40,778 nucleotides of DNA from an uncultured Clostridia bacterium (GTDB lineage Bacteria > Bacillota > Clostridia > Oscillospirales > JAAYOS01), in contig CANPWY010000004.1 in the NCBI GenBank assembly GCA_947585215.1, forward strand, positions 1 through 40,778. Reading direction: 5' to 3'. The stretch's first letter is position 1; each line of letters begins with the position of its first letter. The position numbers were made by a program, and so were the translations under genes. Shown here one piece after another: positions 31,083 through 35,083 of the stretch. The notes under the pieces were generated by a model. It ran no database searches. It saw only the letters and a list, made by a program, of their open reading frames with translations, and was not told where the DNA came from.

Positions 31083-31136
31083 AGAAATCGCTTGCTATGC
31101 TTCTTACATTATTACATTTTTGCCGGGTATTGTCAA
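31083..31136 (-). promoter_or_regulatory. Minus-strand promoter and candidate LacI-family operator for the Gfo/Idh-lacI operon
   Basis: Minus strand TTGACA (rc of 31131-31136), 17 nt, AATAAT (rc of 31108-31113); downstream TAGCAAGCGATTTCT (rc of 31083-31097) matches the WTGNAANCGNWNNCW consensus except one base. Confidence 0.55.
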
Positions 31137-31148
31137 GACAATTTTTCC

Positions 31149-31177
31149 TTGCAAACGGATACGCGATACTCTATAAT
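31149..31177 (+). promoter_or_regulatory. Sigma-70-type promoter for ABC-F gene
   Basis: TTGCAA (31149-31154), 17 nt, TATAAT (31172-31177). Confidence 0.75.
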
Positions 31178-31258
31178 AGTTACCGCCGGATGTTTGCGGC
31201 AAGCATACGAATCGAAAGGATACTCCGGGCGGAAGCCGCCGGAGAATATACTGGAAAA

Positions 31259-33187
31259 ATGCCTATTTTGTCGGTGATGGGCGCCGGAAAGGACTTCGGC
31301 GAGGTCACCATACTGGAAAACGTAACATTTGAGGTACAGCCGGGCGATCGCGTCGGCCTGATAGGCGACAACGGAACCGGCAAGACCACTCTGTTCAAAA
31401 TGATCTCCGGCGAGTACGCCTGCGACAAGGGGAGCGTACACATCGCGCCGGGTACGCGCGTCGGCGTCCTCGACCAGATACCGTACTACCCGGACGGGAC
31501 GACGGTCGAGCAGGTCCTTCGCGGTGCGTTCGAGCGCCTTGACGGCATAGCCGCGCGGATGCGTGAGCTCGAGCAGAGAATGAGCGAGGGAGACGCGCAG
31601 GCGGTCCGCGAGTACGGCGCGCTCGAGATAGAGTTCTCGGCGGGCGGAGGCTACGACACGGAGGTGCAGTTCCGCCGCGTCGCGAACGGTCTCGGCCTCA
31701 CGCCGATGCTCGAAACACGGTGGGAAAAGCTCTCCGGCGGCGAGAGGACGCGGATAAACCTCGCGCGGATGATCCTCACCGACGTCGATTTGATGCTCCT
31801 CGACGAGCCTACGAACCACCTCGACATACAGTCGACCGAGTGGCTCGAGGACTTCCTCGCCTCATTCAAGGGCTCGGTGCTGATAATATCGCACGACCGC
31901 TACTTCCTCGACCGAACGGTGGGGAGAATAGTCGAGCTCGAGGGCGGCACGGCGAAGGTCTGGAACGGAAATTACAGCGAGTTCCTCCGCCAGAAGGAGG
32001 AGTATATCCGCTCAGCCGAAGCGCAGATGCGTAACGCCGAGAAGAAAGTGAAGCAGCTCGAGGACGCGGTGAAGCGCGTACGCCTCTGGGCGTTCCTCGG
32101 AAACGACAAGCTCTACCGGACGGCGTTCTCGATGGAGAAGCGGATAGCGCGGATAAAGGCGTCGATGCCGAAGCTCGTCAAGCAGGGGAGAAACCTCCGC
32201 GCGACCTTCGGCGAGACGCGCCGCTCAGGCGAGGACGTACTGTCGGTCACGGGGCTCAAAAAGAGTTTCGGAGACAGGACACTCTTCTCGGACGTGGACC
32301 TCGAGATAAAGAAGGACGAGCGCGTCGGCCTGATAGGCGCAAACGGCGCGGGGAAGACAACGCTTCTAAACATTCTTCTCGGCAAGCTGCCGCCGGACGA
32401 GGGACGCGTGAAGTGGGGCGTCGGCGTCAAGACGGCGTACCTGCCGCAGATGGTGAGCTTTGAGTATAACCACACGACGATAGTTGACAGCGTCTGCCGC
32501 ACTCTCAGCATAAGCGAGGCGGAGGCGCGGAACATCCTCGCGCGCTTCAACTTTACCGGCGAGGACGTGTTCAAGGATATCGACACGCTCTCCGGCGGCG
32601 AGAAGAGCCGCCTCCGCCTGTGTATTCTCATGCAGGGCGGCGTTAATATGCTCATCCTTGACGAGCCCACGAACCACCTCGACATTCGCTCGCGCGAATG
32701 GCTCGAGCAGGCGATAGACGAGTTCGACGGGACGCTGCTGCTCGTCAGTCACGACCGCTACTTCCTCGAGAAGTTCGCAACGAAGATATGGTCGGTGGAG
32801 CAGGGAGGGATAATCGACTTCGACGGGACCTACAGCGAGTACCGCGAGGTCGCCGAGACCCTGCGCACCGCGCGCGAGTCCGCCGTGCCGCCGCCGGAGC
32901 CGCAAAAGAAGGAGCCCGAGCCGAAGAAGGAGCAGGAGCAGAGCGAGGCTCGCGAGGCGCATAAGCGCAGCCGCGAGACCGACGCGCTACGCAAGCGCGT
33001 TCCGATAATCGAGCGCCGCATATCCGTCCTCGAGGACGAGATAAAGCAGATAGACGAGGAGCTGACGGAGGCCTCGAGCGACCACATCCGCCTCGGCGAG
33101 CTGCTGACTAAGCGCGAGGAGACCGAGCACCGCATAGATATGCTCATGCTCGAATGGAGCGAAATAATGGAAAAATTGGGAGAATAG
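31259..33187 (+). CDS. ABC-F family ATP-binding protein
   Basis: Two ABC domains (GDNGTGKTTLF, GANGAGKTTLLN), LSGGERTR and LSGGEKSR, two DEPTNHLD motifs; charged C-terminal coiled-coil; no TM. Confidence 0.93.
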   Translation: MPILSVMGAGKDFGEVTILENVTFEVQPGDRVGLIGDNGTGKTTLFKMISGEYACDKGSVHIAPGTRVGVLDQIPYYPDGTTVEQVLRGAFERLDGIAARMRELEQRMSEGDAQAVREYGALEIEFSAGGGYDTEVQFRRVANGLGLTPMLETRWEKLSGGERTRINLARMILTDVDLMLLDEPTNHLDIQSTEWLEDFLASFKGSVLIISHDRYFLDRTVGRIVELEGGTAKVWNGNYSEFLRQKEEYIRSAEAQMRNAEKKVKQLEDAVKRVRLWAFLGNDKLYRTAFSMEKRIARIKASMPKLVKQGRNLRATFGETRRSGEDVLSVTGLKKSFGDRTLFSDVDLEIKKDERVGLIGANGAGKTTLLNILLGKLPPDEGRVKWGVGVKTAYLPQMVSFEYNHTTIVDSVCRTLSISEAEARNILARFNFTGEDVFKDIDTLSGGEKSRLRLCILMQGGVNMLILDEPTNHLDIRSREWLEQAIDEFDGTLLLVSHDRYFLEKFATKIWSVEQGGIIDFDGTYSEYREVAETLRTARESAVPPPEPQKKEPEPKKEQEQSEAREAHKRSRETDALRKRVPIIERRISVLEDEIKQIDEELTEASSDHIRLGELLTKREETEHRIDMLMLEWSEIMEKLGE

Positions 33188-33309
33188 CTTGCCACAACTC
33201 TGCGGGCGGAACCTCGCGACCAAGCGGGCAAAGCCCACACCTAATAGCGGGGAAGCCATAGCGGGGAAGCCCCGCGGGTATCCGCGGGGCAAGCCCCCCG
33301 CGTCCCTAA

Positions 33310-33432
33310 GTGAGGCAGAGCCTCACGCTGCCTTGCGGGGGCTGCGCCCCCGCGCCCTGCGTTACTTTTTGCTTGTGCAAAAAGTAACCAAAAAGCACAC
33401 GAAGGGGAGAAAACCTATGGTTTTCTCCCCTT
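33310..33432 (+). repeat. Four-hairpin module, copy A
   Basis: GTGAGGC/GCCTCAC; GCGGGGGC/GCCCCCGC; GTTACTTTTTGC-TTGT-GCAAAAAGTAAC; AAGGGGAGAAAACC-TAT-GGTTTTCTCCCCTT, in that order. Confidence 0.9.
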
Positions 33433-33745
33433 TGGACCCCTCTTTCCTTTGACCGGAAGGTTTCTGCGACGCGTGGCGTCTGTCCGTAGCTTAGTACAAG
33501 CGTCCACGCTCAAACTTTCCATTAGAACCGAAAGTATTGTTTTCTCGGGAAAGTATCTGCATTACGCTTATAGTGTGAGCGTAGGACCGGACTTTTGTAT
33601 CTACTACGCAGGAATCGTTCGATGTTGTCGGCCGCCTAGGGAAAAGTCTGATAGAAACTCACACGGTCGGATGACAGATTTGTTTGATACAGAGCTTGTC
33701 CTGCTATGTGGGTTGCGGTTGTGTGTCGTGTTGGGAGAGGGATTT

Positions 33746-33869
33746 TTAAGGGAGAGGGCGGAGCCCTCTCCCTTAAGCGCGTTTTTGGTTACTTTTTGCG
33801 CGAGCAAAAAGTAACGCAGGGGTGCGGGGCGGCACAGCCCCGCGAAGGTGTCGGAACCGCTAGGTTCCG
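33746..33869 (-). repeat. Four-hairpin module, copy B (inverted)
   Basis: On minus strand: CGGAACC-TAGC-GGTTCCG; GCGGGGC/GCCCCGC; GTTACTTTTTGC-TCGC-GCAAAAAGTAAC; TTAAGGGAGAGGGC-TCC-GCCCTCTCCCTTAA. Confidence 0.9.
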
Positions 33870-33886
33870 CATAATCCCTCGAAGTT

Positions 33887-35083
33887 TTACTTCGCAAAAA
33901 GAAAGCTTTCCAGTCTGTCAAGCCCCAGCTTGATATTCTCCAAGCTTGTGGCGTAGCTCCATCTCACATGCTTCGGCGCGCCGAAGCCGGTGCAGGGCAC
34001 CAGCGCGACGTGGCCGGCGGTGAGGAATGCATCCGCAAAGTCGTCCGCATTGTGTATCTCAACGCCGCCGAGAGTCCTGCCGATAAACGCGCTTATGTCC
34101 ATCATGACGTAGAACGCGCCGTCCGGCGGGATTATTTTCACGTCGGGAACCTCGCTCACGCGCTCGATGAAGTACTCGCGCCGCGCCTCAAACGCCCGGC
34201 GCATCAGCTCTATCGAGCTCTGCGAGGCGGTAAGAGCCTCGGTCGCGGCCTTCTGCGCTATCGAGTTCGGCGCGGAGGACATGTGGCTCTGGAGGTTCGA
34301 TATCACCTTCGCTATCTCCGGCGCGGCGGCGCTGTAGCCTATCCGCCAACCGGTCATGGCGTAGCTCTTGGATACTCCGTTTATAAGTATCGTCAGCCTC
34401 TTCACGTCCTCACCGAGGGCGGCGATACTAGTAAAGCGCGCGTCGCCGTATACGAGCTTGTAGTAGATCTCGTCGGCTATGATATAGACGTCGCTCTCCA
34501 CGCAGACGCGCGCGAGATCGGAGAGCTCGCCCGTCGTGTACACGACGCCGGAGGGGTTGGACGGATTGTTCAGTATGAACGCCTTCGTCTTCGGTGTTAT
34601 CGCCGCGCGGAGCATGTCAGCCGTCATCTTCCAGCCGCTCGTTTCGCCGCACTCGACTATGACCGGCACGCCGCCGACCATGCGGATAAGCTCGTAGTAG
34701 CTCACCCAGTAGGGAGCGGCTATTATCACCTCGTCGCCGGGGTCGACGAGCGCGGAGAGCGCGAGGAAAAGCGACTGCTTTGCGCCGTTCGAGACGACGA
34801 CCTCATTCGGCTTGTAGCTCACGCCGCAGTCCTTCTCAAGGCGCGTGCAGACCGCCTCGCGGAGCTCGAGCGTTCCCGCGGCGGGGGTGTATCTCGTGAA
34901 ATTCGAGCCTATCGCCCGGATGGCTTCCATCTTGATGTTGTCCGGAGTATCGAAGTCCGGCTCGCCCGCGCCGAAGCCGATGACGTCCATGCCGGCCGCC
35001 TTCATCTCTTTGTATTTGGTATCTATCGCGATAGTCGTTGAAGCGCGCACCTGCGCCGCTATTCGTGACAGCTCCTTTGGCAT
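33887..35083 (-). CDS. PLP-dependent class I aminotransferase (aspartate aminotransferase-like)
   Basis: FGAGEPDFDTPDNIK, NNPSNPSGVVY, LINGVSKSYAMTGWRIGY PLP-lysine motif. Confidence 0.94.
   Translation of the reverse strand: MPKELSRIAAQVRASTTIAIDTKYKEMKAAGMDVIGFGAGEPDFDTPDNIKMEAIRAIGSNFTRYTPAAGTLELREAVCTRLEKDCGVSYKPNEVVVSNGAKQSLFLALSALVDPGDEVIIAAPYWVSYYELIRMVGGVPVIVECGETSGWKMTADMLRAAITPKTKAFILNNPSNPSGVVYTTGELSDLARVCVESDVYIIADEIYYKLVYGDARFTSIAALGEDVKRLTILINGVSKSYAMTGWRIGYSAAAPEIAKVISNLQSHMSSAPNSIAQKAATEALTASQSSIELMRRAFEARREYFIERVSEVPDVKIIPPDGAFYVMMDISAFIGRTLGGVEIHNADDFADAFLTAGHVALVPCTGFGAPKHVRWSYATSLENIKLGLDRLESFLFAK

Follow-up and report, generated by a model that had tools for sequence, protein, structure and literature searches.

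The hairpins that the initial annotation had taken for two inverted copies of a four-hairpin module are the ends of one roughly 600-base repeat, which occupies about positions 33224 to 33894 of the window, that is, of the whole 40,778-nucleotide stretch of Clostridia DNA that was analyzed. This repeat, present dozens of times in the intergenic regions of a few uncultured gut Clostridia, carries a two-part core between inverted palindrome arrays, its modules form a mosaic that varies among copies, and its orthologous sites are found filled, empty or with the core reversed. It is probably a single composite, non-coding interspersed palindromic repeat of one genus, BOX/BIME-like in kind, that sits as a non-autonomous mosaic in gene-end gaps. 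As such, it looks like an elaborate, genus-restricted form of the known bacterial intergenic palindromic repeats rather than a proven new RNA.

All eight hairpin arms quoted in the initial annotation are present at their positions, and the resemblance of the right arm (B) to the left arm (A), 87% over ~57 nt (E=8e-14), is beyond chance; the structure moreover recurs in the genome. The two-copy interpretation, however, left out the core of ~310 nt between the arms, which is itself conserved and repeated. Searched alone, this 310-nt core matched 25 places in the window's genome (G000), 16 of them at full length; A and B are thus the two ends of one element, and the further copies that had been proposed as a check do exist. 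With the stretch 33190-33900 as query, many near-complete copies were found in the same genome. The sequence change in the fourth hairpin is not drift between copies but a fixed difference between ends, with H4L in the left ends and H4R in the right ends of essentially all copies.

Comparison of 59 distinct full-length and 14 partial cores gave the following plan of the element: (abc hairpin unit)n - H3 - H4L - L-module - R-module - H4R - H3 - (cba)n. Its two palindromic ends are inverted relative to each other, a trait of REPINs. Each abc unit measures ~95 nt and holds three hairpins (a, b and c), the number of units per arm varies, and the left hairpin array reaches outward to ~33224. Palindrome a exists in variants of its inner pairs (AG/CT, AA/TT, GA/TC and GG/CC), and hairpin b in three classes (GTGAGGC/GCCTCAC, GTAGAGC/GCTCTAC and CGGAACC/GGTTCCG). 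The features at the window's site are as follows.

31097 to 33187, plus strand: flanking ABC-F-type ATPase gene, 696 aa, outside the element (gene call)
33224 to 33238, plus strand: outermost left hairpin GCGGGC-AAA-GCCCAC, of a type retained at some empty sites (sequence)
33260 to 33304, plus strand: module a of the left arm, nested palindrome GCGGGG..CCCCGC with inner stem CCCCGCRR-NNNN-YYGCGGGG (185-unit alignment)
33310 to 33326, plus strand: module b hairpin (H1) of the left arm, GTGAGGC/GCCTCAC (sequence, arm-unit alignment)
33335 to 33353, plus strand: module c hairpin (H2) of the left arm, GCGGGGGC/GCCCCCGC (sequence, arm-unit alignment)
33361 to 33388, plus strand: module d of the left arm, H3 palindrome GTTACTTTTTGC-TTGT-GCAAAAAGTAAC (sequence, pattern search)
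33402 to 33432, minus strand: H4L, terminator-like on the minus strand, hairpin then CGTGTGCTTTTT (T-tract in 55/56 copies)
33433 to 33652, plus strand: L-module of the core, with the highest conservation at ~33558-33630
33653 to 33745, plus strand: R-module of the core, also found alone with the right arm at several sites
33746 to 33776, plus strand: H4R, terminator-like on the plus strand, hairpin then GCGCGTTTTT (T-tract 33782-33786; 55/56 copies)
33788 to 33815, minus strand: module d' of the right arm, H3 palindrome (sequence, pattern search)
33824 to 33843, minus strand: module c' hairpin of the right arm, GCGGGGC/GCCCCGC (sequence)
33852 to 33869, minus strand: module b' hairpin of the right arm, CGGAACC/GGTTCCG (sequence)
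33880 to 33894, no strand assigned: terminal right hairpin CGAAGTTTTACTTCG, overlapping the aminotransferase stop codon and in the same place in the G001 locus L114
33887 to 35083, minus strand: flanking class I/II aminotransferase gene, 398 aa, outside the element (gene call)

The plus-strand hairpin H4R and the minus-strand hairpin H4L each consist of a GC stem followed by a T-tract, the form of an intrinsic terminator, and they are the only terminator-like sites in 32700-34300. Shuffles of this interval average 1.9 such sites, so that finding two matches the chance number and only their conservation is notable: in each hairpin, stem and T-tract are kept in 55/56 copies, with the T-tracts pointing away from the core. 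Since both hairpins point out of the core, a transcript from either neighbor would end at the far H4, and the element, judged from its sequence, probably stops transcription from both sides. To this extent the initial annotation is supported: the repeat is dispersed and palindromic, bears terminator-like stems and frequently lies at the 3' ends of genes. Neighboring genes, oriented from the gene calls of a home-made codon model, were convergent at 14/32 deduplicated sites compared to 18/200 among the remaining neighbor pairs of the retrieved loci (Fisher p=5e-6). Convergent versus divergent pairs alone (14:5 versus 18:16) did not differ significantly (p=0.16), hence the enrichment may partly mean that elements need a gap, and termination is a reasonable inference rather than a result.

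The core is present in G000, G001, G002 and G004, three of the four sister species thus holding comparable sets, and pattern and similarity searches found no core in their congener G003, nor in the genomes examined from other genera of the family. Across these four species, in the order given, the b-hairpin pattern was counted 43, 38, 79 and 73 times and the central 24-nt H3 pattern at 39, 34, 42 and 46 places, the latter occurring nowhere else among the 40 genomes searched. Scanning the 85,462-species GTDB collection, in which records at or near the window's own genome may be missing, returned the core pattern only from two rabbit-gut uncultured Clostridia MAGs (G004 and G001). A covariance model of the core, run with strict filters on 394 genomes of the order, gave only the four known species among the candidates listed, and the IMG/VR, phage and plasmid collections contained no match to the repeat. 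The Rfam comparison that had been advised produced sub-threshold matches and no family at the gathering threshold, and a literature search, with most subscription journals outside its coverage, found no published description of this repeat. Many contigs of G000, G002 and G004 end inside the repeat (e.g., C11, C28, C46 and C99 of G000); copy numbers are therefore minimum values, and the repeat is probably one cause of the fragmented state of these MAGs. The b-hairpin pattern also matched in G038, which belongs to another family of the order, but this match proved to be part of a distinct repeat whose GC hairpin is similar (GGTCAAGCCTTTTTCAAAAGGCTTGC then GGGGTGTGGGGCAGAGCCCCAC, 19 copies, L282-L300). 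In that repeat, an H3-like palindrome stands beside a GC hairpin, following the same logic with unrelated sequence.

Among the copies, modules are lost, repeated or swapped. The number of abc units is variable and the L, R, R' and e modules are optional, which gives the ordered-module composition of a BOX-like element. The R-module stands alone with its arm at several sites, with a start mostly at one point near CCCCAGAAACTC; the L-module occurs without R at loci L262 and L258, and G002 has a shorter R-module variant, R'. An extra module e of 103 nt (TGTTTCGTGAAGAAAGTG...GCACGCACTCGTTAC) lies next to H3 in 12 fetched loci (L122, L129, L135, L137, L138, L144, L147, L154, L160, L164, L188 and L260), at 85-98% identity to the query, and is conserved in an internal part that its stems do not include. 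Solo R-modules were also observed just upstream of a response-regulator-like gene (L185 on G000:C112 and L132 on G001:C7) and upstream of a glycosidase-like gene (L188 on G000:C57, L130 on G001:C4 and L170 on G002:C107), both genes being named by eye. Both sites are orthologous across two or three species, and these solo modules are possibly co-opted 5' regions.

Defining orthologous sites by their flanking proteins, we obtained 15 groups in which two or more species have a core, and the core had the same orientation in 8/15 and the opposite orientation in 7/15, two of these seven having a flank match on a single side. For the pair L127/L190, the two species align collinearly over the outermost 75 nt of either flank (94% and 82%; alignment scores of 59 and 47 versus a background 95% point of 37) while the core is reversed, which corresponds either to an in-place inversion or to replacement of the core within a conserved array. 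Some reversed cores could stem from misassembly of short-read MAGs across inverted repeats, or the element could have inserted independently in the two orientations. At the window's own site, the core of G001 (L114) runs as in G000 and that of G002 (L246), as far as the contig reaches, the other way; in G004 (L257) the site is empty, with a plain bidirectional terminator between both genes. Ordinary terminators stand at several empty sites. Several empty loci (L264, L253, L268 and L252) retain one outer hairpin. In sister species, the sites of L116, L174 and L122 have nothing left but a single short outer hairpin; at L265, the left and right a-hairpins are joined and the core is absent. Such joined and solo hairpins are expected if palindromes of the two arms recombine, and the solo hairpin at empty sites resembles a solo LTR, the mechanism being one that we infer. 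At the site of L116, locus L249 (G002:C17) shows a synteny break at the otherwise empty repeat site, the downstream gene being different in G002.

In organization, the repeat is closest to pneumococcal BOX and to REPIN/BIME clusters. BOX of Streptococcus pneumoniae is built as boxA-boxBn-boxC, measures 67-637 bp and has terminal inverted repeats and target duplications (PMC3049150). BOX and the present repeat are both composite, dispersed intergenic repeats with ordered modules and stem-loops that are absent from most relatives (PMC3049150), whereas here inverted multi-palindrome arrays flank a core of ~310 nt that has two parts and is bordered by two terminator-like hairpins facing outward. 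Target duplications are reported for BOX (PMC3049150), and no clean one was seen here; the likeness is one of organization. With REPIN/BIME, the repeat shares intergenic palindromes in inverted pairs and mosaic clusters (PMC3116915), but REPINs accompany a RAYT transposase (PMC3116915), and a search with PF01797 found no Y1/RAYT gene in G000-G004, so that it falls outside the REPIN definition; its unit is also far longer and has a conserved core. The SPRITE repeats of S. pneumoniae are likewise terminator-like, lie near the 3' ends of coding sequences and have been suggested to be co-opted as terminators (PMC3049150), but SPRITE is a simple 18-bp duplex with a U-rich tract (PMC3049150), in contrast to a compound element with two opposed hairpins.

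The inverted ends, the dispersed copies and the coexistence of filled and empty sites would also suit a MITE-type element that an insertion-sequence transposase, recognizing the H3/H4 ends, moves in trans, and a possible GCTTTG repeat flanks the filled site of L116, ambiguous as a target duplication. Nevertheless, the filled/empty pairs showed no clean target-site duplication, the outer ends are variable arrays with no fixed termini, and the five genus genomes lack a Y1/RAYT protein by PF01797, all of which makes this origin unlikely.

The pairing on which the initial annotation built its case for selection on RNA structure is real, since the hairpins do keep pairing despite sequence change (96% of arm stem cells are Watson-Crick, with swapped pairs), but the selection itself was not supported. 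We used an R-scape-like covariation test (G-test with APC, substitutions being redistributed on a FastTree tree). Within the core, it found no credible pair in 73 copies under the tree-based null, the single match (9-15) lying on one side of H4L and not being a base pair. Across 185 arm units, the predicted a and b stems supplied the highest-ranking pairs, with E about 0.05, so that arm covariation is borderline in this tree-aware test. G-U exceeded A-C in the arms (80 versus 38), mostly from the inner a stem. Replication template switching can make paired changes in one event that keeps stems perfect (PMC8794818), and in yeast it homogenizes inverted-repeat arms and inverts short spacers (PMC8604942), the spacer here being ~300 nt.

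A large structured non-coding RNA acting in trans, made by the core from many copies with the arms as terminators, would account for the invariant stretches of a core whose mean identity is 81%, for the outward terminator-like hairpins that close it on both sides and for some core stems that swap pairs (e.g., GCTT/AAGC versus GCTG/CAGC). We hold it quite improbable, given that core covariation is not significant, that fold z-scores are modest (mean -1.55 on the plus strand and -2.50 on the minus strand), that core pairs predicted on both strands are balanced between G-U (33) and A-C (29), and thus favor neither RNA strand, that no promoter-like site was found in 32700-34300 and that Rfam gave no match. 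A coding core was rejected as well, a frame being open over 90 codons in no more than 20/56 copies, and the 121-aa open reading frame at 33449-33814 had no Pfam match. Core conservation, strong at about columns 162-237, nonetheless exceeds the needs of a passive spacer. The L-R core might be a functional entity of its own, as RNA or as recombination substrate, with a conserved motif driving copying and in-place inversion at gene ends; we give this idea only a small chance, and, if true, it would define a new type of invertible, terminator-carrying mobile repeat.

A programmed switch, in which a site-specific recombinase flips the core and so alters expression of the neighbors, would fit the orientation difference in 7/15 orthologous groups, but the ends are long imperfect palindromic arrays and no promoter-like site was found in 32700-34300, making it very unlikely. 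A retroelement-like origin, in which reverse transcription would insert the unit at terminators in the manner of group IIC introns and R-only copies would be 5'-truncated products, is barely credible, for although R-only copies mostly share a start point and ordinary terminators lie at several empty sites, Rfam gave no group II intron match and such an origin is disfavored because the five genus genomes (G000-G004) contain no reverse transcriptase (RVT_1, PF00078).

Returning to the BOX/BIME-like repeat, we propose a model in which the element would be a non-autonomous selfish or neutral mosaic that may persist in gene-end gaps because its core ends bear outward-facing terminator-like hairpins. 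A transcript coming in from either neighbor would run through the near arm and the core before ending at the far H4. The element's own palindromes would recombine or template-switch, leading to inversion, loss to a solo hairpin and module swapping. An agent spreading it to new sites was not found among the mobility enzymes searched in G000-G004 (PF01797 and PF00078).

The points of interest of this repeat are the core orientation that differs at orthologous sites and the conserved core itself. The apparent compensatory changes between two hairpin "copies" were misleading, and they illustrate that palindrome repair can mimic RNA selection. The same loci in close species show filled, empty, solo-hairpin and reversed states, and these four states make it possible to trace, step by step, how a bacterial palindromic mosaic repeat arises, inverts and decays.
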